This document shows positions 1 to 43,926 of a stretch of DNA of 64,000 bases, piece after piece. Location: the NCBI RefSeq assembly GCF_963675165.1, contig NC_087387.1, positions 5,544,990 to 5,608,989 of the forward strand. Reading direction: 5' to 3'. The position numbers were made by a program, and so were the translations under genes. The stretch's first letter is position 1, and the number at the start of each line of letters is the position of its first letter. This stretch comes from Halichondria panicea (Eukaryota > Porifera > Demospongiae > Suberitida > Halichondriidae). Below the pieces are notes generated by a model. The model ran no database searches. It had not been told where the DNA came from and saw only the letters and a program-made list of their open reading frames with translations.

Positions 1-176
1 CAGTGAGTAGTGAAGCTATCGTGAGAGAAGAGGAGTTCTACATTGCTGAGGATCACACGTACGCAGCTGTCAATAAGAAAGCAAAGAAGAAAAAGAAGCC
101 AAAGAATGCAGAATCTGATAGAGAGGGAGAGGAGGAAGTCCCGCCTCCTTTTGTCAGTACCATGGCTGAAGTTTAG
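1..176 (+). CDS. C-terminal tail of an SRCR receptor, cut by the window edge
   Basis: This is the last part of the shared cytoplasmic tail, reading from base 3 (VSSEAIVREEEFYIAEDHTY...) to a TAG at 174-176. It keeps the FYIAE and TYAAV tyrosines, the lysine run and the PPPFVSTMAEV end. The 5' part of the gene lies outside the window, so the head type is unknown. It matches the tails of the complete genes downstream almost residue for residue, so identity is not in doubt. Confidence 0.85.
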   Translation, partial: VSSEAIVREEEFYIAEDHTYAAVNKKAKKKKKPKNAESDREGEEEVPPPFVSTMAEV

Positions 177-650
177 GGTGGGGGTGACTGAACACTGCAT
201 GTGAACTGAGATATTGAACATTACTGGCTGTAAGACGTCCATAGTAGTAGTATAGAGAGAGTGAATACACAAAATCGGTTATTATGTACTGTAGTACGCT
301 CAATTTAGAAGGAAGAAAATTATAATTGACATTTCTTGACAAAAGGCTATTCCCCAATAGTATCCATTTTATGGATGTACCACTGTACGGCAATTCGTAT
401 TAGTGCCCTTGTAGTGATCTCAGTCCTTAACCACTACGAGCCAATACATTGCTTTGTGGCACTCATTGCCATATGTAATCTAATGTCGTAAAGCGTGAAA
501 TTTTATATTTCGTCTAATGGCCTCTCAAGGTATTTCGTTGAATAAATTCGTGGGTTGACTGGTACTGAAAGCACTTCCAGGCCACGCCTTTAATCTTTGC
601 ATATTAAGCAGTAATTAGGAACCATTTTCGTGGAATTAATTTTTGTGTAG
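177..650 (+). other. Spacer unit before orphan membrane/tail cassette
   Basis: No gene is seen. This segment recurs at 4286-4806, 16553-17052 and 17712-18246, each time directly before an orphan membrane-plus-tail cassette. Shared landmarks are TTCGTCTAATGGC, an AATAAATTCGTGGGTTGAC stretch that contains a poly(A)-like signal, and GCACTTCCAGGCCACGCC. It is part of a duplicated unit of roughly 1.1 kb. Confidence 0.7.
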
Positions 651-1327
651 GATTGCTAACACTATCTACACAGTTGCCTCCTATAGAATTTACCCCCAGA
701 AATGAAAGAGGCACTAGATCCACACGTGCTAACAATTCCACCACCTTCATTGCTGGCATTGGTGTACTGGTGGTTCTGTTACTAGCTCTATCAGTTGGTT
801 GGATAGTGTCCTTTGTTATTCTACTCAGGAGAGAGGACAGGCTGTGCACAAACAACAGTGAGTGGCCCTAAACACACACCTCATGTTTACCCATACTAAT
901 GTGTTGTTTCTACTAAATGTTGTTTACTGCTATTCCCATACAGTGTTGATGCAGGTACTATCTCAACAAGGAGCAATCAGAGCTACACACAACAGGACAT
1001 CAACACACAGCTCTACGCTGAGGCCACCCCTCCTGATACAACCTACAGTAGACTGAACAGAAGTGATAAACAGACGGAAGAAATTGCTACCTACGATTAC
1101 GCTGATCCCAACCAGATAAGGGTAGAGTGTCCCAAGCAACCAACCCACCACCAGTGAGTGATGAAACTATCGTGAGAGAAGAGGAGTTCTACATTGCTGA
1201 GGATCACACGTACGCAGCTGTCAATAAGAAACCCAAGAACAAAAAGAAGCCAAAGAATGCAGAATCTAATGGAGAGGGAGAGAGTGAAGCCACGCCTCCA
1301 TTTGTCAGCACCCTGGCTGAAGTGTAG
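651..1327 (+). pseudogene. Orphan membrane/tail cassette, frameshifted
   Basis: A stalk-plus-membrane exon (651-857, acceptor GTGTAG) and a tail exon (944-1327) stand here with no signal or SRCR exons between them and the previous gene's stop. The membrane exon has two extra bases in the AGGAGAGAGGAC stretch, compared with AGGAGAGGAC in intact copies. The tail lacks one T at GAGTGTCCCAAG. Reading therefore leaves the family frame and stops early. It is either a dead alternative C-terminal cassette of the preceding gene or a dead gene remnant; the intact copy at 17053-17711 favours cassette origin. Confidence 0.7.
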
Positions 1328-1562: not shown

Positions 1563-2090
1563 ATGACAGTTTTGAACATACTACTGCTATCTAGATAGTG
1601 TCCCTGTTACTTCAACTCAACAACAACAAGGTATGTAAACCATACACCTATAATAGGCTTTGAATTTCCATGAATTGTTTACAGAATGTTTGAATGGACA
1701 ACTTCGAGAAACTACTTCTAATTCCCTGGAGTACTGTTACCATGCCATGAAGAATGGACATTAGTCTGCCATGATGACAGTCAGTGGAACCAAGAGAGGA
1801 CAATTGTATACACACAACTGGGTTACAGTGCTCTGGTAAGTTAATTATCAAGTGAGGAGTAGAATACTTTGTGTATATATGGAATAGCAAATGAGCCCCA
1901 CTACACAAAGGAAATGTGTCACACTGACTAACTGCAGTGAACCCAGGACAGCATCTCACAGAATGCATGGTCACGGCCAGTGACAACTGTACTAGAGTAG
2001 ACTACCGAATTTCGTCACACGTCAATAATTGTCAGCTAAAAAGTGTGTATAATGCACGAACAAAACAAGATTGATTCTAACTAACTGCAC
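1563..2090 (+). pseudogene. Decayed SRCR gene head (MTVLN type)
   Basis: It has a signal exon (MTVLNILLLS then an in-frame TAG), an SRCR1 first-half exon near 1683-1834 with extra bases at TACCATGCCATGAAG, and a second-half exon from about 1884 that loses its frame. No SRCR2, membrane or tail exon follows; the next gene starts at 2554. The same head type recurs, always broken, at 19288, 22220 and 30524. A TATATAAAG motif about 35 bases upstream of the ATG is retained. Confidence 0.75.
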
Positions 2091-2553: not shown

Positions 2554-4285
2554 ATGGCCATCATGACTGTTCACTGTGCAGTAATCCTTGGAATGCTACT
2601 GTTGTTAATCATTTCCACTACTGGCACTGCTCAACAAGGTATGTTCATAAGTAATCTCAGTAGATAAGCTTTTTACTGTGCAAATATAGAGTGCTTCAAT
2701 GGGCAAGTTCGGAAACTTCATTTTGATCTCCTTGAGTATTGCTACAATGGAGAATGGAGATTGGTCTATTACTCAGAGAGTCAGTGGAGTCTGGATATGA
2801 CAAGGACAGTGTGTGCACGACTGGGTTACCACAAGTTTTTTGGTAACTATAAAAATTATAGCGTGTATACACAGTCTGCACAATATTTCTAATAGGAGTG
2901 GTGCGAGGGGTAAGTCAGAGTGGTGCAGGAAAATTTGTCACTCTGACTGAATGCAATGAAACAGGACTAACAGGATGCATAGAGACACCCAGTGAAGACA
3001 GCTGTACTGAGTGCTCTCTTGTGTTTCTAACGTGTATCGCAGGTTCATCTCAGTTTTACCAATACATTTTTAGATACAAACCATGTTATTCTCATGCAGT
3101 ATAGTTATATGTATTTAGCTAACTGTGATGATGGAGAGACAAGACTGGTGGGTGGATCCACTGACAGAGAGGGACGAGTGGAGGTGTGTGTAGGAAGTCC
3201 CCTAACTTTATGGAGGACAGTTTGCACTGGCAGTCAAGAACTGGCAGGAGCTGTTTGTTCACAAATGGGTTACATCTTTGAAGGTCTGAACAGATAAATT
3301 CATGTATTGCAATGTAATTACTACCTACAGGAGGCACTGTGGCATTGCCTGACGTATTTCCTCCTGGAGCATTTCAAGAGTACAGACTAAACTGTACACA
3401 ACTAAGCAATGGAACGTGGCACTGTAGTCCAGTTGAACAACAATGTGACAGCTTTATGGAGCTTGGAGTCGTTTGTAAGAGCTATGAAAATCTGTACAAT
3501 GACTGTTCAAGGAACTGTACACTGTCAAAATTGTCAGTAACTACACAGTCACCTACTCAGCAAGGTAATTTTATATAGACAATAAACTAGTATTTTACTG
3601 CATGACATCCCTAATATATAGTTACTACTCAAAGGGAAGCTGTTTGTGCTAACAATTCAACTGTGGCAGTAACCACTCCAATGGCATGTACTGACAATTC
3701 CACAACCTTCATTGCTGGCATTGGACTGGTGGCTCTGTTACTAGCTGTATCAGTTGGTTGGATAGTGTCTTGTATTATTCTGCTCAGGAGAGGACAGACT
3801 GTGCACAAACAACAGTGAGTGGCCCTAAACACACACCTCATGTTTACCCATACTAATGTGTTGTTCCTACTAAATGTTGTTTACTGCTATTCCCACACAG
3901 TGTTGATGCAGGTACAATCTCAACAAGGAGCAATCAGAGTTACACACAACAGAACATCAACACACAGCTCTACGCTGAGGCCACTCCTCCTGATACAACC
4001 TACAGTAGGCTGAACAGAAGTGATAAACAGACGGAGGAAATTGCTACCTACGATTACGCTGATCCCAACCAGATAAGAGTTGAGCGTTCCCAAGCAACCA
4101 ACCCACCACCAGTGAGTTGTGAAGCCATCGTAAGAGAAGAGGAGTTCTACATTGCTGAGGATCACACGTACGCAGCTGTCAATAAGAAAGCCAAGAAGAA
4201 AAAGAAGCCAAAGATTCAAGAATCTGATGGAGATGAAGAGTGTGAAGCCCCGCCTCCTTTTGTCAGCACCCTGGCTGAAGTGTAG
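2554..4285 (+). CDS. SRCR-SRCR membrane receptor, class Ia, intact
   Basis: Seven exons: 2554-2638, 2690-2842, 2896-3042, 3119-3283, 3331-3564, 3622-3814, 3901-4285. They join to 453 residues. Residues 1-28 are a signal peptide. SRCR1 is about 29-128 (LEYCYNGEWRLVYY...VCARLGY). SRCR2 starts near 129 (LVGGSTDREGRVEV...ICSQMGY-type core, ending VVCKSYE). A stalk follows, then a membrane helix near 290-316 (VALLLAVSVGWIVSCIILL) with a basic stop-transfer. The 128-residue tail has seven tyrosines, including LYAEA, TYSRL, TYDYA, FYIAE and TYAAV. TYSRL fits the ITIM-like T-x-Y-x-x-L form, and a proline run and a lysine run follow it. This is inferred to be a cell-surface recognition receptor that binds SH2 proteins when phosphorylated. 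A second in-frame ATG at 2563 is also usable. Confidence 0.88.
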
Positions 4286-4806: not shown

Positions 4807-5235
4807 GATTGCTAACTCTATCTACACAGTTGCCTTCTAAAGAAAGCACCCCCAGCAATGAAAGAGGCACTAGATCCACACATGCTGACAATTCCACCAC
4901 CTTCATTGCTAGCATTGCTGTACTGCTGGCTCTGTTACTAACCATATCAGTTGGTTGGATAGTGTCCTGTGTTATTCTACTCAGGAGAGGAGAGAATGTG
5001 CACAAACAACAGCATAAGTTAGTGTCAATATCTCAGTTCACACGATGTGTTCCGTCACCTCCACCCTACACTTCGGCCAGGTGTGTTGTTCCTACTAAAA
5101 TAATGTTGTTTACTGCTATTCTCACACAGTGTTGATGCAGGTACTATCTCAACAAGCAATCAGAGCTATACACAACAGGACATCAACACACAGAGGTCAC
5201 CCCTACACAATCTACAGTACACTGAACAGAGGTGA
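4807..5235 (+). pseudogene. Orphan membrane/tail cassette with inverted insert
   Basis: The stalk/membrane exon (4807-5011) is open and carries VLLALLLTISVGWIVSCVILL. Its normal GTGAGT donor is gone. Bases 5013-5080 are instead an inverted copy of a receptor tail end plus 3' UTR, so the frame runs on into antisense tail sequence. A tail exon start at 5130 is recognisable, but internal deletions end it at a TGA (5233-5235) soon after NTQRSPLHN. As spliced in the other copies it cannot make a normal receptor. Read unspliced, it would give a membrane protein with a new tail. Confidence 0.75.
5013..5080 (-). repeat. Inverted copy of receptor tail end
   Basis: Read on the minus strand, this matches the end of the tail exon and its 3' UTR (CTGGC[C/T]GAAGTGTAGGGTGG, then GTGAACTGAGATATTGACAC). 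The best visible donor is the gene at 5951-7668, which shares the CGTGTGAACTG stretch after GGAACAC that most copies lack. Confidence 0.75.
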
Positions 5236-5950
5236 TAAGCTACTTTTTCTGGCTAATAACTGTGGAAGTACCTGCATATTATTTTTTGCAATTTTGTGCT
5301 GCGAAGCGATTACCACCCACAAAATTCACATAGTAATTTGATACTCGCAAAACAATTGTATAGATAGCATGGCTGTAACTCAGAACAAGGACACAGCCTA
5401 ATTTTTATATACAAAACACTTCTACGGGACATTCATCTTCCTAATTACACTAATAATTTATACCCCTGAGTATACGGATATACAATGGAGAATGGTGCTT
5501 TGGAGACAGTCAGTAGAATATACTTTGTTATGAGAATGCCCTTTCTACATGCACTCTATCGGCAATTTCATCCTTTCAATCACTGCGCTCATTTCCGTAT
5601 ACAAAATAATGTATAGGAGTGACCTGTTTTTCACTCTCGTATAGTCAGCAGCTTGAGCTTATATATGCCTAACCTATAGGAAGCTCACACAAACTAAATG
5701 ACCTGATCATGCAGGAGGATCACACTTATGCGTTATAGGGACGGAGATTAATGTTCAATATAAATACACTTCGCCTCACATGGATTGCAGTTTCCCCTGT
5801 GTTCTGTGATCGAAAAATTTACAGGCTTGTTATCATGACATAAGAAATAATTATACATCCCCTATATACATGCGTGTAGGCATCAAAACTACATCCTGTA
5901 TACATAAAAGGATATATATAGCTAGAATCTATCCTATTGCTACTATCAAA
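5236..5950 (+). other. Spacer with a relic SRCR exon
   Basis: There is no open gene. Near 5482-5522 the sequence ACAATGGAGAATGG then GGAGACAGTCAGTAGAA resembles the SRCR1 core exon (YNGEW...DSQWN) with deletions, a decayed remnant. The rest is AT-rich. Confidence 0.45.
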
Positions 5951-7668
5951 ATGCAGGTCTCAAAGATATTGGTGTTAGTTGTCGCTACTATTGCTACAGC
6001 TCAATCATCACAAGGTAGCAATAATTGTGTACATGCTAAATCAGACTTAACTATCAGTGAATGTAGAGTGTTTCAATGGACAAATTAGTGAAGGTACTAC
6101 TAATTTCCCTGAGTACTGTTACAATGGAGAATGGAGATGGATCTGTTACCAAGACAGTCAGTGGAACCACGAGAAGACAATATCTGTATGCACACAACTG
6201 GGTTACAGTGCACTCGGTTAGTTATTATCAAGTGATAAGTAGATAGCTCGTAATATCTTTTATATACAGGAGTAGCAGACAACCAATGTGGGACTATTCA
6301 AAGAAAAGTTGTCACACTGACTAACTGCAATGCACAGCATTTCACAGAATGCATGGTCACGGCCAGTGACAACTGCACTACCTGTTCTTACTTGTCTTTA
6401 AGATGTTCCGCAGGTTGGTGCATATAATGTTGCCATGCCGTTTTAGCATACTAAATTTATTTCAGCCATCTGCACTCATGGAGAGATAAGACTGGTGGGT
6501 GGGTCCACTGACAGAGAGGGACGAGTGGAGGTGTGTGTGGGTGGCAGGCGATGGAGGACAGTTTGCACTGGCAGTCAAGAACTGGCCGGAGCCGTTTGTT
6601 CACAAATGGGATACATCTTTGAAGGTAACACTCAAATAATGTACTGTGGATATAATTATCTACCAACAGCAAGTGCTGTTGCACTACCAAACTCATTTCC
6701 TCCTGGAGCATTCCCAGAGTACAGACTAGACTGTACACAAATAAGCAATGGAGCATGGCACTGTAGTCCAGTTTATCAACAATGTGACAGCTTTGTGGAG
6801 CTTGGAGTTGTTTGTAAAAACTATGAAGATCTATACAATGAATGCTCAAGGAACTGTACACTGTTAGTTACTACACAGTCACCTACCACCCAGCAAGGTA
6901 TAGACTAATTAATACAGTTAGAGGAGATTAAGCAACATTTCACTTCACAACATCCCAACAGTTACTCAAGGGGAAGCTGTTTGTGCTAACAATACGACCG
7001 TGGCAGTAATCAATCCACTAACATGCACATGTACTGACGACAGTTCTACCAAGGGGCCAAAATATACATCTAAACCTGCTGACATTTCCACCCTCACTGC
7101 TGGCATTGGTATACTAGCGGCTCTGTTACTAGCTGTATCAGTTGGTTGGATAGTGTCCTGTGTTATTCTACTCAGGAGAGAACAGACTGTGCACAAACAA
7201 CAGTGAGTGGCCCTAAACACACACCTCATGCTTACCCATGCATACTAATGTGTTGTTCTTACTAAATGTTGTTTACTGCTATTCCCACACAGTGTTGATG
7301 CAGGTACTATCTCAACAAGGAGCTACACACAACAGAACATCAACACACAGCTCTACGCTGAGGCCACCCCACCTGATACAACCTACAGTAGACTGAACGG
7401 AGATAATAAACAGACGGAAGAAATTGCTACCTACGATTACGCTGATCCCAACCAGATAAGAGCAGAGTGTTTCCAAGCAACCAACCCACCACCAGTGAGT
7501 GGTGAAGCTATCGTGAGAGAAGAGGAGTTCTACATTGCTGAGGATCACACGTACGCAGCTGTTAATAAGAAACTCAAGAAGAAAAAGAAGCCGAAGAATG
7601 CAGGATCTGATGGAGAGGGAGAGGGTGAAGCCCCGCCTCCTTTTGTCAGCACCCTGGCTGAAGTGTAG
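5951..7668 (+). CDS. SRCR-SRCR membrane receptor, class I with own head, intact
   Basis: Seven exons: 5951-6014, 6067-6216, 6270-6413, 6466-6624, 6670-6897, 6962-7202, 7293-7668; 453 residues. The signal peptide (MQVSKILVLVVATIATAQ) is unlike its neighbours. SRCR1 carries PEYCYNGEWRWICYQDSQW. SRCR2 is the AGAVCSQMGYIFEG form. The stalk exon is separate and rich in Thr, Asn and Cys (AVCANNTTVAV, LTCTCTDDS). The tail lacks the two codons for NQ after STRS but keeps every tyrosine except SYTQQ context changes. The TGT/TTC change (AECFQATN) is in frame. The start is the only ATG in frame before the signal sequence. Confidence 0.87.
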
Positions 7669-8208: not shown

Positions 8209-9844
8209 ATGCAAGTCTCAAACTTCATTCTGCTATTAACTGTTGTCATCACTGTCATAGCACAACCAGGTATAATTACAATGACTGTAGTTCAGAGCAA
8301 CACTCTAGAATTGTGTACAGAATGTTTAGACGGACAACTTCGTCTTCCTGATCATGAAGTACCCACACTTTTTGAGTACTGTCACAATGGAGAATGGAGA
8401 TGGATCTGTCATGATGAAAGTCAGTGGAATATTGAGAGATTAGAGGCTACTTGTGGACAACTGGGATATTCGCATGAATTTGGTAGGTGAGATGTGTTCT
8501 AAAATAAACTAAGACAAATAATTATTGTTACTTATATAGGACTAGTAAATACCGGGGATTCTCAGAATGGTTCAAGAAGAGTAGTCACTCTGAGTGGCTG
8601 CAATGGACCAAGACTAACAGAGTGTATGGTGACACCCAATGACAGCTGTAACTCTCTTGTGCGACTAGTGTGTACCACGGGTTAGTAACAATTTGTTAAG
8701 ATGCATAATGTTATGCACTACTAAATGTACATACACTATAATAGCTAACTGTGCTGGTGGTGGAGAGACAAGATTGGTGGGTGGATCCACTGACAGAGAG
8801 GGACGAGTGGAGGTGTGTGCTAACAGACGATGGAGGACAGTTTGCACTGGCAGTCAAGAACTGGCAACAGCTGTTTGTTCACGAATAGGAATTGACAGTT
8901 TAGTATTAGAAGGTGATGATCATATAACTTAATAAGTATAACGACTGATAGCACAACTATATATACAGGAAGCACTGTGGCAGTAACTAACTCATTTCCT
9001 CATGGAGCATTTCCAGTGTACAGCCTGGAGTGCAACAGGCAGCAATTCGATGGAGATTTGCGCTGTAGTCTAGTTGAAGGATGTAACAGCTTTGTGGAGC
9101 TTGGAGTTGTTTGTAAAAAGTATGAAGATCTACGCAATGAATGTTCTAGGACTAGTACACTGTCTACATTGTCAACTAGCGTACAAGTTACTACACCTTT
9201 GCCTACTACTACAACATGTGGCCCTATCAAATCAGATTTTAAATCAGACTTTAAATGTACTGGTAATTCCACCAACCTCACTGCTGGCATTGGTGTACTG
9301 GTGGCTCTGTTACTAGCCGTATCAGTTGGTTGGATAGTGTCCTGTGTTATTCTACTCAGGAGAGGAAAGACTGTGCACAAACAACAGTGAGTGGTCCTAA
9401 ACACACACCTCATGTTTATGTGTTGTTCCTACTAGATGTTGCTTACTGCTATTCCCATACAGTGTTGATGCAGGTACTATGTCAACAAGCAATCAGAGCT
9501 ACACACAACAGGACATCAACACACAGCTCTACGCTGAGGCCACTTCACCTGATACAACCTACAGTAGGCTGAACAGAAGTGATAAACAGACGGAGAAAAT
9601 TGCTACCTACGATTACGCTGATCCCAACCAGATAAGAGTAGAGCGTTCCCAAGCAACCAACCCACCACCAGTGAGTGGTGAAGCTATCGTGAGAGAAGAG
9701 GAGTTCTACATTGCTGAGGATCACACGTACGCAGCTGTCAATAAGAAAGCCAAGAATAAAAAGAAGCCGAAGAATGCAGAATCTGATGGAGAGGGAGAGA
9801 GTGAAGTCCCGCCTCCTTTTGTCAGCACCCTGGCTGAAGTGTAG
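8209..9844 (+). CDS. SRCR-SRCR membrane receptor, class II, intact
   Basis: Six exons: 8209-8269, 8321-8482, 8540-8680, 8745-8912, 8969-9386, 9463-9844; 443 residues. Class II differs from class I in that the second half of SRCR2, the stalk and the membrane helix share one exon. Its SRCR2 first half ends SRIGIDSLVLEG rather than SQMGYIFEG. The signal is MQVSNFILLLTVVITVIAQP. SRCR1 reads LFEYCHNGEWRWICHDESQW. The stalk has TTPLPTTTT and a duplicated KSDFKSDFK. The tail starts ADAGTMSTSNQ (one codon shorter than usual) and keeps TYSRL, TYDYA and FYIAE. Confidence 0.87.
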
Positions 9845-10122: not shown

Positions 10123-11757
10123 ATGAAAGTTTTGCACGTACTACTGCTATCTATCGTCACTATTGTATCAACTCAACAACTACAAGGTATGTATTTGCTA
10201 TAGACATCTACTGCTTTAAGTTTCCTAATTACGAAACGTTTACAGAATGTTTGAATAGACAACTTCAACAAACAAACAAAATCTCTGGTATCTCTGAGTA
10301 CTGTCACCATGGAGAGAATGGACATTCATCTGCCATGGTGACAGTCAGTGGAACCAAGAGAGGACAATATCTGCATGCACACAACTGGGTTACAGTAACT
10401 CTGGTGGTAAGTTAGTTACCAAGTGCATAAGGAGTAGATAGCTTGTATGTATCTTATAGGAATAGCAGGAGGAGGGCAATGTGGGTCTACTCAAAGAAAA
10501 GTTGTCACACTGACAAACTGCAGTGAACCAGGACAGCATCTCACAGAATGCATGGCCACGGCCAGTGAAAGCTGCACTAGTACCTGTTCTATATTGTTTT
10601 TAACATGCTTCCCAGGTTCGTTCATATAATTATAACAAGGTGGCCATTTATTCATTATTTATTTATTTATTTCAGCTATCTGCAACTGGTGGGTGGATCC
10701 ACTGACAGAGAGGGACGAGTGGAGGTGTGTGTGGGTGGTCGTGAGGGTGGTCGTTGGAGGACAGTTTGCACTGGCGGTCAAGAACTGGCAGGAGCCGTTT
10801 GTTCACAAATGGGATACATCTTTGAAGGTAAGAGAGTGGATTGATAAATGTGCTATGAATTTTATGATCCATCAATAGAGAGTACTGTATCAAATTCATT
10901 TCCTCCTGGAGCATTTCCAGAATATAGACTAAACTGTACACAACTAAGTAATGGAGCAAGGCACTGTAGTCCAGTTGAACAACAGTATGACAGCTTTGTG
11001 GAGCTTGGAGTTATTTGTATAAACTATGAGGAGTATTATGAACGTTCAAGGAACAACCCACTATCTACACAGTTGCCTTCTATAGAATGCATCCCAGGCA
11101 ATGAAAGAGGTACAACGCACACTAGCAATTCCACCACCATGGCCAACATTGTTGATGATTCCACCACCTTCAACACTGTCATTGGTGTACTGGTGGCTCT
11201 GTTACTAGCCGTATCAGTTGGTTGGATAGTGTCCAGTGTTATTCTACTCAGGAGAGGACACACTGTGCACAAACAACAGTGAGTGGCCCTAAACACACAC
11301 CTCATGTTTACCCATGCATACTAATGTGCTGTTCTTACTAAATGTTGTTTATTGCTATTCATTCCCCCACAGTGTTGATGCAGGTACTATCTCAACAAGG
11401 AGCAATCAGAGCTACACACAATAGGACATCAACACACAGCTCTACGCTGAGGCCACTCCTCCTTATACAACCTACAGTAGACTGAACAGAAGTGATAAAA
11501 AGACGGAGGAAATTGCTACCTACAATTACGCTGATCCCAACCAGATAAGAGAAGAGCGTTCCCAAGCAACTAACCCACCACCAGTGAGTGGTGAAGCTAT
11601 CATGAGAGAAGAGGAGTTCTACATTGCTGAGGATCACACGTACGCAGCTGTCAATAAGAAAGCCAAGAAGAAAAAGAAGCCGAAGAATGCAGAATCTGAT
11701 AGAGAGGGAGAGGGGGAAGTCCCGCCTCCTTTTGTCAGCACCATGGCTGAAGTGTAG
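10123..11757 (+). pseudogene. SRCR receptor, class Ib, three lesions
   Basis: All six exons are present: 10123-10186, 10246-10406, 10460-10615, 10676-10827, 10879-11278, 11373-11757. Exon 2 has two extra bases (CATGGAGAGAATGG), exon 4 lacks 16 bases after CTATCTGCA, and the tail has CAG changed to TAG (ACACAATAGGAC). Neither indel restores the other. The near twin at 26350-27972 has none of these. Signal MKVLHVLLLSIVTIVSTQQ and the SRCR2 insert GGREGGRW are shared only with that twin. It is inferred to be a recent pseudogene; sequencing error would need three coincidences. Confidence 0.8.
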
Positions 11758-17052: not shown

Positions 17053-17711
17053 GATTGCTAACACTATCTACACAGTTGCCTCCTATAGAATGTACCCCCG
17101 GCAATGAAAGAGACATTAGTTTTACACGTGTTGATAATTCCACCTCTCTCATTGCTGGCATTGGTGTACTGGTGGCTCTGTTACTAGCCGTATCAGTTGG
17201 TTGGATAGTGTCCTGTGTTATTCTACTCAGGAGAGGACAGACTGTGCACAAACAACAGTGAGTGGCCCTAACACACACCTCGTGTTTACCCATACTAATG
17301 AGTTGTTTACTGCTATTCCCACACAGTTTTGATGCAGGTACTATCTCAACAAGGAGCAATCACAGCTATACACAACAGGACATCAACACACAGCTCTACG
17401 CTGAGGCCACTCCTCCTGATACAACCTACAGTAGGCTGAACAGAAGTGATAAACAGACGGAGAAAATTGCTACCTATGATTATGCTGATCCCAACCAGAT
17501 AAGAGTAGAGCGTTCCCAAGCAACCAACCCACCACCAGTGAGTGGTGAAGCTATCGTGAGAGAAGAGGAGTTCTACATTGCTGAGGATCACACGTACGCA
17601 GCTGTCAATAAGAAAGCCAAGAAGAAAAAGAAGCCGAAGAATGCAGAATCTGATGGAGAGGGGGAAAGTGAAGTCCCGCCTCCTTTTGTCAGCACCCTGG
17701 CTGAAGTGTAG
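17053..17711 (+). CDS. Orphan membrane/tail cassette, intact
   Basis: There are two exons, 17053-17257 (stalk and membrane helix) and 17327-17711 (tail), both with good splice signals and no frame error. The first begins in phase 1 after GTATAG, so it can accept any upstream SRCR exon of the array. The stalk reads LLTLSTQLPPIECTPG, and the helix is GVLVALLLAVSVGWIVSCVILL. The tail has FDAGTISTRSNHSY and all later tyrosines. No signal peptide or SRCR exon precedes it. The likeliest use is as an alternative C-terminus of the gene at 14882-16552, which would drop SRCR2's second half. A remnant kept open by chance is the other possibility. Confidence 0.6.
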
Positions 17712-30523: not shown

Positions 30524-31035
30524 ATGACAGTTTTGAACATACTACTCCTATCTATCGTCATTATTACTTCAACTCAACAACAACAAGGTATGTAAACCAT
30601 ACACCTATAGGCTTTGAATTTCCATGAATTGTTTACAGAACGTTTAAATGGACAACTTCGAGAAACTACTTCTAATTCCCTGGAGTACTGCATGTTACCA
30701 TGCCATGGAGAATGGACATTCATGTCATGATGACGGTCAGTGGAACCAAGAGAGGACAATTGCATGCACACAACTGGGTTACAGTAACTCTGGTGGTAAG
30801 TTAGTTATGAAGTGAGGAGTAGAATAGCTTGTGTATGGAATAGCAAATGGACCATGTGGTACTACTACACAAAGAAAAGTTGTCACACTGACTAACCACA
30901 GTGAACCAGGACAGCATCTCACAGAATGTATGGTCATGGCCAGTGACAACTGTACTAGAGTAGACTACCGAATTTTGTCAGACGTCAATAATTGTCAGCT
31001 TAAAGTGTGTATAATTGCACGAACAAAATGAGATT
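30524..31035 (+). pseudogene. Decayed SRCR gene head (MTVLN type)
   Basis: The signal exon is intact here (MTVLNILLLSIVIITSTQQ). The SRCR1 exon starts with the cysteine codon changed (AACGTTTAAATGG), carries extra bases at TACTGCATGTTACCATGCC, and has lost the ATCTGC cysteine codon. The second-half exon is still recognisable to about 30990. It is the least decayed of the four. Confidence 0.75.
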
Positions 31036-31521: not shown

Positions 31522-33349
31522 ATGACCAGTATGACTGTTCACTGTGTAGTAATCATTGGAATGCTACTGTTGTTAATCATTTCAACTATCGGCACTGCTC
31601 AACAAGGTATAATTATATGTCAAGTACACTAAGTATGTATGTTCATCAAGTAATCTATAAGTAGATAGGCAGTTTACTGTGCAAATATAGAGTGCTTCAA
31701 TGGACAAGTCCGTAAACTTGTTTCTAATCTCCTTGAGTATTATTACAACGGAGAATGGAGATTGGTCTATTACTCAGAGAGTCAGTGGAGTCCGGATATG
31801 ACAAGGGCTGTGTGTGCACAACTGGGCTACCACGATTTTTTCGGTAGTTATAATAATTATAATTATATAGCGTGTATGAAGTATACACAGTCGGCATAAT
31901 TATTTCTAATAGTAACGCTGAAAGGGTCACGTCAGAGTGGTGCAGGAAAATTTATCACTCTGAGTGAATGCAACAAAACAGGACTAACAGGATGCATAGA
32001 GACGCCCAGTGAAGACAACTGTACTGAGTGCTCTCTTGTGTTTCTACAGTGTATCGCAGGTTCATCTCAGTTTTAATACTTTTTTGTATACACACCATGT
32101 CATTCTCATGTATATAGTTGTATGTATCATAATTATTATATACAGCTAACTGTGCTGATGGAGAGATAAGACTGGTGAGTGGATCCACTGACAGAGAGGA
32201 GCGAGTGGAGGTGTGTGTAGGAAGTCCCCAAACTTTATGGAGGACAGTTTGCACTGGCAGTCAAGAACTGGCAGGAGCCGTTTGTTCACAAATGGGATAC
32301 ATCTTTGAAGGTCTAAACAGATAAATTCATGTATTGCAAATGTAATTACTAACTACAGGAGGCACTGTGGCATTGCCTGACGTATTTCCTCCTGGAACAT
32401 TTCCAGAGCACAGATTAAACTGTACACAACTAAGCAATGGAGCATGGCACTGTAGTCCAGTTGAACAACAATGTGACAGCTTTGTGGAGCTTGGAGTTGT
32501 TTGTAAGAGCTATGAAAATCTGTACGATGAATGTTCAACGAACTGTACACTGTCAAAATTGTCAGTAACTACACAGTAACCTACCACCAAGCAAGGTAAT
32601 GTTATATAGGCAATAAACTAGTATTTTACTGCATGACATCCCTAATATATAGTTACTACTCAAAAGGAAGCTGTTTGTGCTAACAATTCAACTGTGACTG
32701 TAATCACTCCAGTGGTATGCACATGTACTGATGACAACAAGTCTACATGTGCTGACAATTCCACCACCTTCATTGCTGTCATTGGTGTACTGGTAGCGGT
32801 GTTACTAGCTGTATCAGTTGGTTGGATAGTGTCCTGTGTTATTCTACTCAGGAGAGGACAGACTGTGCACAAACAACAGTGAGTGGCCCTAAACACACAC
32901 CTCATGTTTATCCATACTAATGTGTTGTTCTTACTAGATGTTGTTTACTGCTATTCCCACACAGTGTTGATGCAGGTACTATCTCAACAAGGAGCGATCA
33001 GAGCTACACACAACAGGACATCAACACACAGCTCTACGCTGAGGCCACCCCTCCTGATACAACCTACAGTAGACTGAACAGAAGTGATAAACAGACGGAG
33101 GAAATTGCTACCTACGATTACGCTGATCCCAACCAGATAAGAGTAGAGTGTTCCCAAGCAACCAACCCACCACCAGTGAGTGGTGAAGCTATCGTGAGAG
33201 AAGAGGAATTCTACATTACTGAGGATCACACATACGCAGCTGTCAATAAGAAAGCCAAGAAGAAAAAGAAACCAAAAAATGCAGAATCTGATGGAGAGGT
33301 AGAGAGTGAAGCCCCACCTCCTTTTGTCAGCACCCTGGCTGAAGTGTAG
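31522..33349 (+). pseudogene. SRCR receptor, class Ia, single nonsense codon after SRCR2
   Basis: Seven exons: 31522-31606, 31691-31843, 31913-32059, 32146-32310, 32359-32595, 32653-32878, 32965-33349. All splice sites and both later exons are sound. The only truncating defect is TAA at 32577-32579 (ACACAGTAACC, where relatives read ACACAGTCACC), 17 codons past the last SRCR2 cysteine. The product would be a secreted two-SRCR protein of 256 residues. SRCR1 has lost both cysteines of one expected pair (LEYYYNGEWRLVYY). Otherwise it is closest to the gene at 2554. It is either a recent pseudogene, a soluble form or a polymorphic stop. Confidence 0.75.
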
Positions 33350-34549: not shown

Positions 34550-36180
34550 ATGCAAGTCTCAAATTTTATTCTGCTATTAACTGTTGTCACCACTGTCACA
34601 GCACAATCAGGTATACAATAATCATGACTGTAGTTCAAAGCAACACTCTGAGAATTGTGTACAGAATGTTTAGACGAACAACTTCGTCTTCCTGAAGTAA
34701 CAGACACACTTCTTGAGTACTGTCACCATGGAGAATGGAGATGGATTTGTCACGATGAAAGTCAGTGGAACTTTGAGAGATCAGAAGCTACTTGTGTACA
34801 ATTGGGATACTCAAATGAACGTGCATTTGGTAAGTGAGATGTGTCTTGAAATTACAGAGAGTAAAGTATTTCTTAATAGGACAAGCGACTGTGGATTCTC
34901 AGAATGGTTCAAGAAGAGTAGTCACTCTGAGTGACTGCAATGGACCTGGACTAGCGGAGTGTATGGTGACACCCAGTGACAGCTGTAACTCTCTTGTGCA
35001 ACTAATATGTAACATGGGTTAGTAACAATTTGTAGAGATGCATAATGTTATGCACTACTAAAATATTAATGTACATACATATATAGCTGCCTGTGTTAAT
35101 AGCGATACAAGACTGGTGGGTGGATCCACTGACAGAGAGGGACGAGTGGAGGTGTGTGATAACAGTCGATGGAGGACAGTTTGCACTGGCAATCAAGACT
35201 TGCCAGTTCTGGCAGGAGGTGTTTGTTCACGAATAGGAATTCAAAGTTTAGTGTTAGAAGGTGATGATCATAATTTACTTATAGTATAATAACTGATAGC
35301 ACAACTATATATACAGGAAGCACTGTGGCAGTAACTAACTCATTTCCTCCTGGAGCATTTCCAGAGCACAGCCTGGAGTGCATGCATCAAACCAATGGAG
35401 ATTTGCGCTGTAGTCTAGTTAAAAAAAAATGTGACAGTTTTGTGGAGCTTGAAGTTGTTTGTAAAAACTATGAAGATTTACGCAATGAATGTTCTAGGAA
35501 TAGTACACTCTCTACATTGTCAACTAGCGTACATGCAACTACACAGTTACCTAATACAACATGCACCCCTGACTCTACACGTGCTAACAATTCCACCACC
35601 TTCATTGCTGTCATTGTGTACTGGTGGCTCTGTTACTAGTCGTATCAGTTGGTTGGATAGTGTCCTGTGTTATTCTGCTCAGGAGAGGACAGACTGTGCA
35701 TAAACAACAGTGATTGGCCCTAAACACACACCTCATGTTTACCCATACTAATGTGTTGTTCCTACTAAATGTTGTTTACTGCTATTCCCACACAGTGTTG
35801 ATGCAGGTACTATCTCAACAAGGAGCAATCAGAGCTACACACAACAAGACATCAACACACAGCTCTACGCTGAGGCCACACCTCCTGATACAACCTACAG
35901 TAGGCTGAACAGAGGGGATAAAAAGACGGAGGAAATTGCTACCTACGATTACGCTGATCCTAACCAGATAAGAGTAGAGCGTTCCCAAGCAACCAACCCA
36001 CAACCAGTGAGTGGTGAAGCTATCGTGAGAGAAGAGGAGTTCTACATTGCTGAGGATCACACGTACGCAGCTGTCAATAAGAAAACCAAGAAGAAAAAGA
36101 AGCCGAAGAATGCAGAATCTGATGGAGAGGGAGAGAGTGAAGCCCCGCCTCCTTTTGTCAGCACCCTGGCTGAAGTGTAG
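34550..36180 (+). pseudogene. SRCR receptor, class II, one-base deletion in membrane helix
   Basis: Exons 34550-34610, 34665-34829, 34880-35017, 35087-35260, 35317-35709, 35796-36180. Relatives read ATTGGTGTACTGG at the start of the helix; here it is ATTGTGTACTGG, so translation ends VIVYWWLCY with a stop at 35637-35639 (286 residues). The donor after the helix is also weakened (GTGATT for GTGAGT). Both SRCR domains are complete, with the enlarged SNERAFG loop and an SRCR2 reading PVLAGGVCSRIGIQSLVLEG. The tail exon is open. A third member would thus yield a tail-less, probably secreted product. Confidence 0.75.
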
Positions 36181-36886: not shown

Positions 36887-38577
36887 ATGCATGTCTCAAG
36901 CTTCATTCTGCTATTAACTGTTGTCACCACTGTCACAGCACAACCAGGTATACAATAATCATGACTGTAGTTCAGAGCAACACTCTAGATTTGTGTACAG
37001 AATGTTTAGACGGACAACTTCGTCTTCCTGACCTGATTGAAGTGGACACACTTCTTGAGTACTGTCACCATGGAGAATGGAAATGGATTTGTCATGATGC
37101 AAGTCAGTGGAATATTGAGAGATCAAAAGCTACTTGTGGACAACTGGGATATTCGGATCAATTTGGTAAGTGAGATGTGTCCTGAAATTACAAAGAGTAT
37201 AGAGTATTTCTGCTTAGTTTATAAGACAAAATTAATAGAACAAGTAAACGGGGATTCTCAGAATGGTTCAAGAAGAGTAGTCACTCTGAGTGACTGCAGT
37301 GGACCAGGACTAGCGGAGTGTATGGTGACACCCAGTGACAGCTGTAACTCTCTTGTGCGACTACTGTGTTCCGTGGGTTAGTAACAATTTGTCGAGATGC
37401 ATAATGTTATTCACTACTAAATGTACACACATGCATATATACAGCTAACTGTGCTGATGGAGAGACAAAACTGGTGGGTGGAACCACTGACAGAGAGGGA
37501 CGAGTGGAGGTGTGTGTGGGTGGCAGGCGATGGAGGACAGTTTGCACTGGTAGCCAAGACCTGGAAGTTATGGCAATAGCTGTTTGTTTACGAATAAGAA
37601 TTCGAAGTTTAGTGTTAGAAGGTGATGATCATAATTATAATAGCCATTTATTTATAGTATAACGACTGATAGCACAACTATATATACAGGAAGCACTGTG
37701 GCAGTAACTAACTTATTTCCTCCTGGAGCATTTCCAGAGCACAGCCTGGAGTGCACGGAGCGACCCGATGAAGATTTGCGCTGTAGTCTAGTTGAACAAC
37801 AATGTGACAGCTTTGTGGAGCTTGGAGTTGTTTGTAAGAACTATGAAGATCTACGCAATGAATGTTCTAGTACACTGCCTACATTGTCAACTAGAATACA
37901 TGCAAATACACCATTGCCTAATACAACATGTGGCCCTCCTATCAAATCAGACTTTGACAATTCCACCACTATCATCATTGTTGATAATTCCACCACCTTC
38001 ATTGCTGTCATTGGTGTACTGGTGTCTCTTTTACTAGCCGTATCAGTTGGTTGGATAGTCTCCTGTGTTATTCTACTCAGGAGAGGACAGACTGTGCACA
38101 AACAACAGTGAGTGGTCCTAAACACACACCTCATGTTTACCTATACTAATGTGTTGTTCCTACTAAATGTTGTTTACTGCTATTCCCACACAGTGTTGAT
38201 GCAGGTACTATCTCAACAAGGAGCATCAGAGCTACACACAACAGGACATCAACACACAGCTCTACGCTGAGGCCACCCCTCTTGATACAACCTACAGTAG
38301 ACTGAACAGAAGTGATAAACAGACGGAGGAAATTGCTACCTACGATTATGCTGATCCCAAAAAGATAAGAGTAGAGCGTTCCCAAGCAACCAACCCACAA
38401 CCAGTGAGTGGTGAAGCTATCGTGAGAGAAGATGAGTTCTACATTGCTGAGGATCACACGTACGCAGCTGTTAATAAGAAAGCAAAGAAGAAAGAGAAGC
38501 CGAAGAATGCAGAATCTGATGGAGAGGGAGAGGGGGAAGCCCCGCCTCCTTTTGTCAGCACCCTGGCTGAAGTTTAG
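36887..38577 (+). pseudogene. SRCR receptor, class II, frameshifted tail
   Basis: Exons 36887-36947, 37001-37165, 37239-37376, 37445-37621, 37690-38107, 38194-38577. Everything through the membrane helix is open. In the tail, AGGAGCATCAGAGC lacks one A compared with AGGAGCAATCAGAGC, so after about eleven tail residues the frame changes and ends at TGA 38303-38305 (356 residues). The product would be a surface receptor without any of the signalling tyrosines. Signal MHVSSFILLLTVVTTVTAQP is shared only with 42243. SRCR2 is LEVMAIAVCLRIRIRSLVLEG. Confidence 0.75.
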
Positions 38578-39216: not shown

Positions 39217-39391
39217 ATGCAAGTCTCAAGCTTCTTTCTGCTATTAACTGTTGTCACCACTGTCACAGCACAACCACCAGGTATATATACAATACTTATG
39301 ACTGTAGTTCAGAGCAACACTCTGAGAATTGTGTACAGAATGTTTAGACGGACAACTTCGTCTTCCTGAAGTAGCCACACTTCTTGAGTAT
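39217..39391 (+). pseudogene. Truncated class II head
   Basis: The signal exon (MQVSSFFLLLTVVTTVTAQP plus P) is followed by the first third of the SRCR1 exon (ECLDGQLRLPEVATLLEY). Similarity ends abruptly at CTTGAGTATAGGG, and sequence typical of class Ia upstream regions starts about 200 bases later. A deletion or unequal exchange has removed the rest of this gene. Confidence 0.8.
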
Positions 39392-39756: not shown

Positions 39757-41510
39757 ATGACCAGCATGACTGTTCACCATGCAGTAATCATTGGAATGTT
39801 ATCAATCATTTCAACTATCAGCACTGCTCAACAAGGTATGTTCATAAGTAATCTCAGTAAATAAGCTTTTTACTGTGCAAATATAGAGTGCTTCAATGGA
39901 CAAGTTCGTAAACTTCATTCTGATCTCCTTGAGTATTGTTACAATGGAGAATGGAGATTGGTCTATTACTCAGCGAGTCAGTGGAGTACGAATATGACAA
40001 GGGCTGTGTGTGCACAACTGGGTTACCAGGATTTTTTCGGTAATAATTATTAATTGACTATAATTATAGCATGTATGAAGTATATACACAGACGGCAAAA
40101 TTATTTCTAATATAGGATTAGTGCGAGGGGGAAGTCAGAGTGGTGCAGGAAAATTTGTAACTCTGAAAGAATGCAACGAACCAGGACTAACAGGATGCAT
40201 AGAGACACCTAGTGACAGCTGTACTGAGTGCTCTCCTGTGTTTCTACAGTGTACCGCAGGTTAATCTCGTTTTACCAATACCTTTTTGGATACACACCAT
40301 AATTATGTCATTCTTATGCATGCAGTAGAGTTATAATTATGTATACAGCTAATTGTGATGATGGAGAGATAAGACTGGTGGGTGGCAGAGACACTGACAG
40401 ACAGGGACGAGTGGAGGTGTGTGCTAGCCAGCGATGGAGGACAGTTTGCACTGGCAGTCAAGAAGTGGCAGGAGCTGTTTGTTTACAAATGGGATACATC
40501 TTTGAAGGTAATAAAGGACTGACAAATTCATATAATTATTTGTAGCGAATGTAATTACAACCGATAGGAGGCACTGTTGCACCACCAAACTCATTTCCTC
40601 CTGGAGCATTCCCTGAGTACAGACTGGACTGTACACACCTAAGCAATGGAGCATGGCACTGTAGTCCAGTTGAACAACAATGTGACAGCTTTGTGGAGCT
40701 TGGAGTTGTTTGTAAGAACTATGAAAATCTGTACGATGAATGTTCAACGAACTGTACACTGTCAAGATTGTCAGTAACTATTACACAGTCACCTACCACC
40801 AAGCAAGGTAAATTTAATGTTATAGACAATAAGCGGTATTTTTACTGCACGACATGCCAAATAATAGCTGTTTGTGCTAACAATTCAACTGTGGCAGTAA
40901 CCACTCCAATGGCATGTAATTCCACCACCTCCATTGTTGGCATTGGTGTACTGGTGGCTCTGTTACTAGCTGTATCAGTTGGTTGGATGGTGTCCTGTGT
41001 TATTCTACTCAAGAGAGGACAGATTGTGCACAAACAACAGTGAGTGGTCCTAAACACACACCTCATGTTTACCCATACTAATGTGTTGTTCTTGCTAAAT
41101 CTTGTTAACTGCTATTCCCACACAGTGTTGATGCAGGTACTATCTCAACAAGGAGCAATCAGAGCTACACACAACAGGACATCAACACACAGCTCTACGC
41201 TGAGGCCACCCCTCCTGATACAACCTACAGTAGGCTGAACAGAAGTGATAAACAGACGGAGGAAATTGCTACCTACAATTACGCTGATCCCAACCAGATA
41301 AGAGTAGAGCGTTCCCAAGCAACCAACCCACCACCAGTGAGTGGTGAAGCTATCGTGAGAGAAGAGGAGTTCTACATTGCTGAGGATCACACGTACGCAG
41401 CTGTCAATAAGAAAGCCAAAAAGAAAAAGAAACCAAAGAATGCAGAATCTGATGCAGAAGGAGAGAGTGAAGCCCCGCCTCCTTTTGTTAGCACCCTGGC
41501 TGAAGTGTAG
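39757..41510 (+). CDS. SRCR-SRCR membrane receptor, class Ia, intact
   Basis: Seven exons: 39757-39835, 39887-40039, 40116-40259, 40349-40507, 40568-40807, 40868-41039, 41126-41510; 443 residues. The signal is shorter by two codons (MTSMTVHHAVIIGMLSIIS). SRCR1 has EYCYNGEWRLVYYSASQW and VSPVFLQCTA at its end. SRCR2 begins LVGGRDTDRQGRVEVC and has the class I core EVAGAVCLQMGYIFEG. The stalk exon begins directly at AVCANNSTVAV because its acceptor lies further downstream than in the copy at 3622. In the tail, TYDYADP is TYNYADP. Confidence 0.88.
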
Positions 41511-42242
41511 GGTGGTGGTGACTGAACACTGTGAACTGAGATATTGACACTAACTTATGCTGCCTGTAAAATTACGTCCCTAGTAGTATAGAGAGAGAGT
41601 GAATACACAAAATGGGTGATATAATTATTGTACTGTAGTACACTCACATATAATTATTATAACATTATGAGAGTGCCCTTTCAAAATATTGTCGGCAGCT
41701 AGGTGATTCGTTTTATAAAACGTATACAGGAAACTGAATTGAGGATCAAATAAGAATATATAACAGTGGACATTTGCTGCATCAAGTACAAGTAAGAGTC
41801 GTGGTAACTGACCAATCTGAGTGCTGCCTGGAGACTTGCCTCGAGGTAACAATACCAAATTGTCATTATTGATCACGCGTTTCAGACAGGAAGTCACGTT
41901 ATTTATCAAATACATCTTATGCACAGTATATGCATGCATTTGATATTCTCTAGATATAATTATAGCAATTCATATAATTATGCATTCTACCAGACCCCCC
42001 ACCCTGTCAGAGAATAGGCTGCATGGAAATTTCGATAATATTTTTCAGTGATTGCTAAATAATTAGGCATGCATGTTGATACAGGATGTTGATACAGGAT
42101 GTTGATAGATTCAATTGATACAGGATGCATGTAGATTGATACAGGTTGTTGATGCAGGATGTACATATTCAATTGACACAACTAACAACTGGGTATAGCT
42201 TTATATGCCATTCCCTCTAAGAACTGACGACTTTCGGTCAAC
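41511..42242 (+). promoter_or_regulatory. Class II upstream region with minisatellite
   Basis: No gene is seen. It is the class II spacer; the segment from about 41985 is nearly the same as 36630-36886, including the minisatellite (about 42074-42165). Confidence 0.6.
42074..42165 (+). repeat. Minisatellite upstream of class II gene
   Basis: Same unit order and interruptions as 36719-36810 (GTTGATACAGGAT units), with no visible length difference. Confidence 0.75.
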
Positions 42243-43926
42243 ATGCATGTCTCAAGCTTCATTCTGCTATTAACTGTTGTCACCACTGTCACAGCACAAC
42301 CAGGTATACAATAATCATGACTGTAGTTCAGAGCAACACTCTAGATTTGTGTACAGAATGTTTAGACGGACAACTTCGTCTTCCTGATTATGACGTACCC
42401 ACACTTCTTGAGTACTGTAACCATGGAGAATGGAGATGGATTTGTCATGATGAAATTCAGTGGAATATTGAGAGATCAAAAGCTACTTGTGGACAACTGG
42501 GATATTCGGATAAACTTGGTAAGTGAGATGTGTCCTGAAATTTCAGACAAAGAGTAAAGTATTTCTGCTTAGTTTATAAGATAAAATTAATAGGACACGT
42601 GATCGAGGATTCTCAAACTGGTTCAGGAAGAGTAGTCACTCTGAGTGACTGCAATGGACCAGGACTAGCAGAGTGTATGGTGACACCCAGTGACAGCTGT
42701 AACTCTCTTGTGCAACTAGTGTGTACCACGGGTTAGTAACAATTTGTAGAGATGCGTAATGTTATGCACTACTAAATGTACACACTAATAGCTAACTGTG
42801 CTGGTAGACAGACAAGACTGGTAGGTGGATCCACTGACAGAGAGGGACGAGTGGAGGTGTGTGTGGGTGGCAGGCGATGGAGGACAGTTTGCACTGGCAA
42901 TCAAGAACTGGCAGTTCTGGCAAGAGGCGTTTGTTTACGAATAGGAAATCGAAGTTTAGTGTTAGAAGGTGATGATTATAATTAGCATTTACAGTATAAC
43001 GATTGATAGCGCAACTATATATACAGGAAGCACTGTGGCAGTAACTAACTCATTTCCTCCTGGAGCATTCCCAGAGTACAGCCTGGAGTGCATGCAGCGA
43101 CCCGCTGAAGATTTGCGCTGTAGTCTAGTTCAACAACAATGTGACAGCTTTGTGGAGCTTCAAGTTGTTTGTAGGAACTACGAAGATCTACGCAATGAAT
43201 GTTCTAGGACTAGTGCACTGTCTACATTGTCAACTAACGTACATGCAACTACACCCTTGCCTAGTACAACATGTGGCCCTATCAAATCAGACAGTAAATG
43301 TACTGGCAATTCCACCACCTTCATTGCTGTCATTGGTGTACTGGTGGCTCTGATACTAGCTGTATTAGTTGGTTTAGTGTCCTGTGTTATTCTACTCAGG
43401 AGAAGACCAACTCAACACAAACGAAGGTAAGTGTCACATACCCTAAACACACATTGGAGCTAAACAACAGTGGGTACATTACGCCCACATATGCATGCAC
43501 TTTATATTTGTAGCATAACCCATCATATTTACTGTTATTTTTACCTTGAATATTTATACTTATAATTACAGTGTTGATCCAGCTATCTCAACAAGGAGCA
43601 ACCAGAGCTACACACAACAGGACAGCAACGAACAGCTTTACGACGAAGCTAAAGCACCTGACCAGACCTACAGTAGGCTGAACAGAGGTCAAGCACAGGA
43701 TCATAAGACGGATGAAATTGCTACCTATGATTACGCTGATCCCAACCAGATAAGAGTAGAGTGTTCCCAAGCAACCAACCCACCACCAGTGAGTGGTGAA
43801 GCTATCGTGAGAGAAGAGGAGTTCTACATTGCTGAGGATCACACGTACGCAGCTGTCAATAAGAAAGCTAAAAAGAAAAAGAAAAAAGACGATGGTGAGG
43901 GAGACAAAAACAATTCATCACTTTAA
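42243..43926 (+). CDS. SRCR-SRCR membrane receptor, class II, divergent membrane and tail, intact
   Basis: Six exons: 42243-42303, 42357-42518, 42594-42731, 42792-42968, 43027-43426, 43572-43926; 430 residues. It is the last gene of the array. The helix is VLVALILAVLVGLVSCVILL, two residues different in length from the others, with RRRPTQHKRR after it. The donor is GTAAGT instead of GTGAGT, and the last intron is longer and unlike the other copies. The tail starts VDPAISTRSNQSY, has QLYDEAKAPDQTYSRL and an insertion GQAQDHKTDE, and ends KKKKKKDDGEGDKNNSSL in place of PPPFVSTLAEV. All the tyrosines remain. The 5' end, by contrast, is nearly identical to that of 36887. Confidence 0.88.

Follow-up and report, generated by a model that had tools for sequence, protein, structure and literature searches.

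A window of 64,000 nucleotides in the genome of the sponge Halichondria panicea (chromosome C11, C11:5544990-5608989) contains a tandem array of genes for putative membrane receptors with scavenger receptor cysteine-rich (SRCR) domains. Tail exons and ectodomains were located by tblastn with exon queries taken from one copy. The exon plan is a signal peptide, a first SRCR domain (SRCR1) on two exons, a second (SRCR2) on two exons, a transmembrane (TM) exon and a tail, termed T1, of about 127 residues. The models fit with phase-1 introns for exons 1 to 6 and phase 2 for the last. Sixteen models have a signal-peptide exon and both SRCR domains, one of them without a tail exon. There are 20 T1 exons (a recount of 21 tblastn matches, since a frameshift divides one exon into two): 15 are in gene models that start in the window, one belongs to a gene that extends across the left edge (stop codon at window positions 174-176), and four are in orphan TM plus T1 cassettes, of which two are short truncations and one is frameshifted. 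With E values of 2e-50 or lower for the full or near-full tail copies, chance matches are excluded. An earlier note on this DNA reported seventeen head-to-tail copies; the array is real, but that number corresponds neither to the 20 T1 exons nor to the 16 gene models. The features, in window positions, are as follows.

1-176, plus strand: end of the T1 tail exon of class-c gene U4c, which starts upstream at C11:5543565, open
731-1327, plus strand: orphan TM and T1 tail cassette, no ectodomain, tail frameshifted
1684-2017, plus strand: class-b SRCR1 fragment, broken
2554-4285, plus strand: SRCR receptor gene W1a, class a head, open
4887-5239, plus strand: orphan TM and truncated T1 tail
5951-7668, plus strand: SRCR receptor gene W2b, class b SRCR1, open
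8209-9844, plus strand: SRCR receptor gene W3d, class d head, open
10123-11757, plus strand: SRCR receptor gene W4b, broken (SRCR1 frameshift, tail stop)
12398-14217, plus strand: SRCR receptor gene W5d, open
14882-16552, plus strand: SRCR receptor gene W6d, open
17133-17711, plus strand: orphan TM and full T1 tail cassette
18340-18638, plus strand: orphan TM and truncated T1 tail
19417-19720, plus strand: class-b SRCR1 fragment, broken
20284-21995, plus strand: SRCR receptor gene W7a, open; exons 2-7 as in RefSeq protein P0002
22342-22653, plus strand: class-b SRCR1 fragment, broken
22975-24154, plus strand: SRCR receptor gene W8d, without tail exon, SRCR2 frameshift
24503-26071, plus strand: SRCR receptor gene W9c (RefSeq protein P0004), open
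26350-27972, plus strand: SRCR receptor gene W10b, open
28588-30206, plus strand: chimeric gene W11da, open; RefSeq protein P0005, with slightly different splice sites
30524-30968, plus strand: class-b head fragment, broken
31522-33349, plus strand: SRCR receptor gene W12a, stop codon in the stalk
34550-36180, plus strand: SRCR receptor gene W13d, frameshift ahead of the TM
36887-38577, plus strand: SRCR receptor gene W14d, open only if the tail acceptor is shifted
39217-39391, plus strand: class-d head fragment, broken
39757-41510, plus strand: SRCR receptor gene W15a (RefSeq protein P0001), open
42243-43926, plus strand: SRCR receptor gene W16d, last copy, tail end divergent, open

Twelve of the 16 models are open from ATG to stop, W14d being counted among them with its shifted acceptor. 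The broken ones are W4b (frameshift and stop), W8d (frameshift and no tail), W12a (stop) and W13d (frameshift), and five further ectodomain fragments lie between the gene models. The heads fall into four classes, a, b, c and d, which are interleaved along the array, and in W11da an SRCR1 of class d is combined with an SRCR2 of class a; the mixture of distinct head classes described in the earlier note is thus borne out. An intron between stalk and TM is present in the class-a copies of the window, in U1b and in W2b, and most other copies have one joint exon. In the class-d models the donors of two exons were set slightly short; better donors of the same phase, free of stops, are found a few codons on. 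RefSeq protein P0002 consists of the W1a signal-peptide exon (window 2554-2637) and W7a exons 2-7 (20414-21995), a join that bypasses the first exon of W7a itself and five genes, and is either long-range splicing or a read-mapping artefact.

SRCR2 of W1a, the one copy scored, gives 40.3 bits against a Pfam cut-off of 26.1, which places it in the SRCR superfamily. When one example of each class was scored for SRCR1 (PF00530, same cut-off), class b passed with 28.9 bits and classes a, c and d were just below (22.0-25.5 bits). By its sequence SRCR1 is assigned as an SRCR domain. The two SRCR domains of P0001, the one protein counted, have eight cysteines each. This is, by count only, the number in group B SRCR domains (WC1, CD163, CD5, CD6), which have eight per domain (PMC10855680; this and the other articles cited are represented by excerpts).

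The array extends past the window. The main T1 array has its upstream limit at 5,534,743, with an additional short piece at 5,528,328, and copies with another tail continue upstream as far as C11:5,479,213. This second tail, T2, is seen in RefSeq protein P0006, whose class-b ectodomain belongs to the same family. T2 exons occur at 13 places, 12 within 5,479,213-5,532,082 and one at 5,341,858; the heads of T2 genes are of classes b and c, with class a in one broken copy, and at least three T2 genes are open (P0006, L046 and L047). A single conserved tyrosine tail of about 128 residues, as proposed in the earlier note, therefore holds inside the window and not beyond it. T1 and T2 give no BLASTP match, and a profile comparison gives a probability of 3.9%. 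They are referred to here as different; the description of the two as wholly unrelated was dropped when a short common block was found (see below). Inside a class-c gene of the T2 array there is an inverted partial SRCR copy at C11:5517455-5518251, on the minus strand. RefSeq isoform P0007 (C11:5488763) has a short tyrosine-free tail despite a T2 exon just downstream, and is possibly an alternative tail-less form.

The two tails are found on nearly the same heads. U1b (T1) and A6b (T2) have in common a stretch of 735 nt with 98.6% identity, which begins 207 nt ahead of the ATG and stops in intron 3; beyond intron 3 the SRCR2 sequences are 83% identical and there is no match in the TM or the tail. 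W2b (T1; window 5805-6880) and the T2 gene L046 (tail exon at C11:5499845) are 92.2% identical over 1,087 nt, through SRCR2. Among 34 gene regions compared by blastn, some of them cut short, these are the only T1-T2 matches of at least 500 nt at 90% identity or more; of six more at 85%-89%, five involve a hybrid locus or a broken-tail copy. The last intron is in phase 2 with both tails (DNA of the pairs compared), and an in-frame exchange of tails is therefore possible. The hybrid locus, L044 (C11:5341858, minus strand), has a class-d ectodomain, a T1-type TM exon and a stump of a T1 tail, followed by a T2 exon. Before this T2 exon an inserted element with inverted terminal repeats was noted by eye.

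A genome-wide search for T1-type exons gave 58 matches at E up to 1, every one on C11. They include five relatives at 5.44-5.47 Mb with 39%-50% identity (T1') and others at 5.98-6.01 and 6.65-6.78 Mb with 37%-54% identity (T1''). Three T1''-type exons at C11:5989618, 5992850 and 5996082 score equally and are spaced 3,232 bp apart, which represents either a very recent tandem duplication or an assembly artefact. At C11:6672400-6676000 neighbouring genes on opposite strands have a common SRCR2 C-terminal half and TM and differ in their tails (T1'' versus another with LYEQI); this is possibly a third case of tail difference.

The T1' tails belong to a second cluster (C11:5442971-5476143, read with gaps), in which genes with three SRCR domains carry T2' tails at four places or T1' tails at five. 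After each of the four T2' tails, 219-609 bases on, comes the first exon read of a next gene with the same (P0010-type) ectodomain. Three of these four genes read through to a T1' tail, and the fourth has a T1' exon match at 5,466,688. Between the T2'/T1' pairs sit P0008-type genes, which carry yet another, third tail. Over the first half-exon of SRCR3 in eight genes, identity is 95.5% across tails (16 pairs) and 95.7% within tails (12 pairs). T2 and T2' have 12 of 25 core residues in common (E = 4e-7, single comparison). The three-SRCR cluster is older than the main array. The arrangement that defines paired receptors, linked genes whose ectodomains are nearly identical and whose tails differ, is thus found in the 98.6% head, in the 92.2% match over most of an ectodomain, and again in the second cluster.

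The history of the exons was compared in 15 open T1 genes (12 in the window and three upstream; broken copies were excluded, and W11da was left out of the by-class comparisons). Distances are those of Nei and Gojobori, and intervals are codon bootstraps, which ignore the non-independence of copies. Synonymous distance (dS) between classes for exons 1 to 7, from signal peptide to tail, is 1.62, 0.97, 0.58, 0.19, 0.29, 0.10 and 0.14; because of this fall from 1.62 to 0.14 along the exons, a single gene history is hard to fit. Distance matrices of exons 1-3 are mutually correlated (r = 0.70-0.86) and those of exons 4-5 less so (0.44); heads versus tails give -0.11 to -0.21. By the approximately unbiased (AU) test, the head tree is rejected by the data of SRCR2 (1.4e-7) and of the tail (0.0011), the SRCR2 tree by those of the head (4.6e-7) and of the tail (0.0005), and the tail tree by those of head and SRCR2 alike, all at p = 0.0011 or lower. 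Exons 6 and 7 were considered as a third inherited block; this was rejected, as it is not robust to removal of W16d.

The ratio of nonsynonymous to synonymous distance (dN/dS) between classes is 0.44 (0.30-0.63) for the tail, and the T1 tail is under purifying selection. Since the trees and distances of head, SRCR2 and tail conflict, the common tail is probably kept alike largely by exchange, with selection in addition. Between classes the signal peptide gives 0.28 and the N-terminal half of SRCR1 0.37 (0.18-0.67), as low as the tail; the signal peptide and part of SRCR1 are therefore constrained as well. Within classes, exons 2-5 give 0.73, 1.08, 0.63 and 0.96, each with an upper limit above 1. 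Positive selection on the SRCR domains is not claimed, the highest of these values being 1.08 with an interval that spans 1. The earlier note held that purifying selection over both SRCR domains would speak against an immune role; this is not clearly seen within classes (0.63-1.08), although the N-terminal half of SRCR1 is constrained.

Among 14 T1-type tails, columns kept in at least 90% include NPPPV..EA......F..AE.H, the tyrosine of DY and that of TYSRL; the last is aligned in 13 of the 14, and YAAV is present in eight. TYSRL was put forward in the earlier note as similar to an immunoreceptor tyrosine-based inhibitory motif (ITIM). The sequence is present as described, but it is TxYxxL and not a canonical ITIM, and outside the main array its +3 leucine is retained in just two tails, both among the five T1'' tails; TYSRL was thus rejected as a conserved ITIM. 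Canonical ITIMs are found in two of five T1'' tails (one or more each, one perhaps in intron sequence). In T2 the ITIM pattern is matched by LTYAVV (consensus) and LTYSVV (P0006), with a shuffle P of 0.08-0.10, and in none of four T2' tails. T2 also has two YxxV motifs 12 residues apart (YxxV-x8-YxxV), which resemble an immunoreceptor tyrosine-based activation motif (ITAM) only if valine is allowed. The form YxxPhi-x8-YxxPhi is present in all six T2/T2' tails scanned, one of these being the consensus (shuffle P 0.004-0.032, uncorrected).

Genes that could act with such tails are present in the genome. At C3:8403000-8407200 tandem SH2 domains lie beside protein tyrosine phosphatase (PTP) exons, and the second SH2 region has its best match in PTPN11 structures (E = 5e-57); the locus is predicted to encode an SHP-2-like phosphatase. 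C9:5255500-5259800 has exons for SH2, ankyrin, SH2 and tyrosine kinase, an arrangement that presumably resembles the Shark/HTK16 kinases. Dozens of tyrosine-phosphatase domain exons, among the best 150 candidates scored, are found at C4:0.04-2.6 Mb and form an apparent large phosphatase expansion.

As to expression and variation, the isoform-numbered names in RefSeq suggest transcripts. A survey of the H. panicea transcriptome reports over 600 SRCR genes and finds that 62% of the recognition receptors are individual-specific in expression (excerpts of PMC8242945); this fits the array but does not identify its genes. Protein P0019, from another assembly, is identical to this genome at 212 of 213 residues. 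P0018, also from another assembly, has a class-d SRCR2 with a T2-type TM, and its best match here is 61%; from this, gene content may vary.

Two other features were noted in the rest of the window. An inverted pair of related cysteine-rich reading frames (47916-48877, minus strand, and 50852-51822, plus strand) is possibly, as a guess, growth-factor-like; a CXCXC repeat is above the Pfam cut-off in one of the two frames scanned. A tRNA gene is found at 56506-56579, minus strand (Rfam).

The locus likely works like a paired-receptor array. The layout that the earlier note compared with paired receptors is upheld by two tails on common ectodomains, recent exchange of heads, broken copies, and a second cluster with both tails. 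The fuller proposal, held with modest confidence, is a tandem array of paired SRCR receptors, working in the manner of bovine WC1, in which two tails are placed on exchanged heads and the tail sets the response. The genes have the architecture of type-I membrane receptors, with signal peptide, a pair of SRCR domains, TM and tyrosine tail, and they evolve by exchange of blocks among copies. The head (promoter, signal peptide and SRCR1) is old and diversified into at least four classes; SRCR2, TM and tail are young, or homogenised across classes. A sponge cell may use SRCR1, above all, to bind surface ligands of microbial or self origin, and the tail, once phosphorylated on tyrosine, would set the response: T2, with two YxxV motifs, could recruit the tandem-SH2 kinase, and the single motifs of the main-array T1 could recruit SHP-2 or adaptors. 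A role in immunity or in self/non-self recognition is plausible. A wider proposal, offered tentatively, is that this arm of C11 is a sponge "leukocyte-receptor-complex" in which ancient tails, T1 and T2 or more, predate the split between two-SRCR and three-SRCR genes and have had heads continually swapped onto them, which would let a head that succeeds be tried with more than one output.

Several observations weigh against the paired-receptor interpretation. T1 and T2 have in common a short block ending in EDHTYxxV, whose local score was reached by 12 of 2000 shuffles, and a remote common origin of the two tails is possible from this resemblance. A canonical ITIM ([SIVL]xYxx[IVL]) is present in none of five main-array T1 tails and none of four T1' tails, and a strict ITAM (YxxL/I-x6-12-YxxL/I) in none of six T2/T2' tails. 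The relaxed ITAM (spacing 6-12) also occurs in five of 14 T1-type tails (none of five in the main array, two of four T1' and three of five T1''), one T1' tail fits the strict pattern, and the P0008 tail fits the relaxed one. Motif type is thus not borne out as a clean divider of T1 and T2 across clusters, and because the relaxed ITAM recurs in T1 relatives elsewhere, a division into inhibitory T1 and activating T2 is proposed for the main array only. Charged residues (K, R, D, E, H) are absent from the two TM sequences inspected, one from a T1 and one from a T2 gene; the T2 TM has one Q. There is a weak link between head and SRCR2 (exons 1-4, r = 0.31; exons 2-4, r = 0.33, p = 0.001; exons 2-5, r = 0.28), and the correlation of exons 6 and 7 is 0.76 with W16d and 0.10 without it, so that it rests on one copy. 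Several second-cluster genes have stops in the exons read, and these genes are known from separate exons. Only five clusters at 90% identity of T1-tailed proteins are present in the searched set versus 15 open T1 models, so that many copies may be silent. The earlier note suggested looking for this tail in other sponges; word-based region searches with P0001 and P0006 gave, besides H. panicea entries, two ENA proteins, and no tail homologue outside H. panicea was identified among them.

The array could instead be an ordinary scavenger or uptake receptor family that was duplicated in tandem, with tails that are trafficking signals homogenised by unequal crossing over, so that T1 and T2 differ in sorting and not in the sign of a signal. 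YxxPhi is also an endocytic sorting motif, main-array T1 is without a canonical ITIM or ITAM, and dS is as low in the tail as in the TM exon, as homogenisation predicts. In the sponge examined in PMC10855680 (excerpts), SRCR genes usually multiply through tandem duplication, and the more than 600 SRCR genes of the transcriptome (PMC8242945) agree with such growth. The retention of two tails on common ectodomains in two clusters of different SRCR number is not what this account leads one to expect; moreover, the T1 block is far longer than a sorting motif and is kept across tails of 37%-54% identity, and the tail dN/dS is 0.44. This explanation is considered rather unlikely.

A histocompatibility locus, in which the heads are polymorphic self-markers or receptors for allorecognition as in Hydractinia Alr or Botryllus fuhc, is an improbable alternative. 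It would agree with clustered private heads, common tails and broken copies, with the ITIM/ITAM-type motifs at both the Alr and fuhc loci (excerpts of PMC12065747), and with P0018, whose 61% best match could be haplotype variation. Against these stand the near identity of P0019 from another assembly and a paper on grafting in Amphimedon, which does not mention SRCR; nothing found favours allorecognition over recognition of microbes. Slightly less probable still is a mostly decaying array, with few working genes and the remainder relics kept alike by gene conversion. Four broken genes of 16, four orphan cassettes, five head fragments and the small number of T1 protein clusters are in its favour, and the 12 open genes and the purifying selection on the tail count against it. 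The array of paired SRCR receptors is the preferred interpretation.

If the wider proposal of a sponge "leukocyte-receptor-complex" is correct, the locus would be the earliest-branching paired-receptor system, and tail-switching would be placed before the Ig-type immune receptors. With the same SRCR heads on two conserved tails that bear tyrosines, paired-receptor logic would reach into Porifera and onto a scaffold other than Ig. Such a layout would be a surprise in so early an animal branch. The pairs P0003/P0006 and W2b/L046 offer concrete genes for a direct comparison of tail function.

No paper on sponge tail classes or sponge paired receptors was found in the parts of the open-access (PMC) literature covered. 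Large tandem SRCR families are known from sponge and sea urchin expansions (PMC10855680), and individual-specific receptor expression from the H. panicea survey (PMC8242945); in the excerpts of these studies neither tail classes nor common ectodomains on different tails are described, and the word "tyrosine" is absent from the former. In vertebrates the paired receptors (KIR, LILR, Siglec, FcR-like) likewise have near-identical ectodomains on different tails, are homogenised by gene conversion and include many pseudogenes. Their ectodomains are of Ig or lectin type, and the activating partner usually has a short tail and a charged TM residue, whereas the two sponge TM sequences have no charge and both sponge tails have tyrosines. 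Hydractinia Alr and Botryllus FcoR are clustered invertebrate receptors with tails of ITIM/hemITAM type, and control of the ITIM/ITAM type has been followed from mammals as far as allorecognition in ascidians and cnidarians (excerpts of PMC12065747). FcoR differs in having Ig-type ectodomains, and a fusion phenotype is known for these invertebrate receptors (PMC12065747).

The closest design is that of bovine WC1, the group B SRCR co-receptors of gamma-delta T cells, which are encoded by clustered genes and are most diverse in domain 1 (excerpts of PMC2681482). WC1 has distinct tail types with known tyrosine phosphorylation, and in the sponge tyrosine-bearing tails are known from the genes. 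WC1-4 and WC1-9 have very similar ectodomains and different tails, and the authors liken them to paired receptors (PMC2681482). In WC1 the SRCR domains number 6 or 11 and the tail is spread over 4-6 exons (PMC2681482), whereas the sponge genes have two (or three) SRCR domains, which in the window genes are divided between two exons each, and a tail encoded by a single exon. Thus in domain number and tail exons the sponge genes fall outside the WC1 family, and the likeness is one of design.

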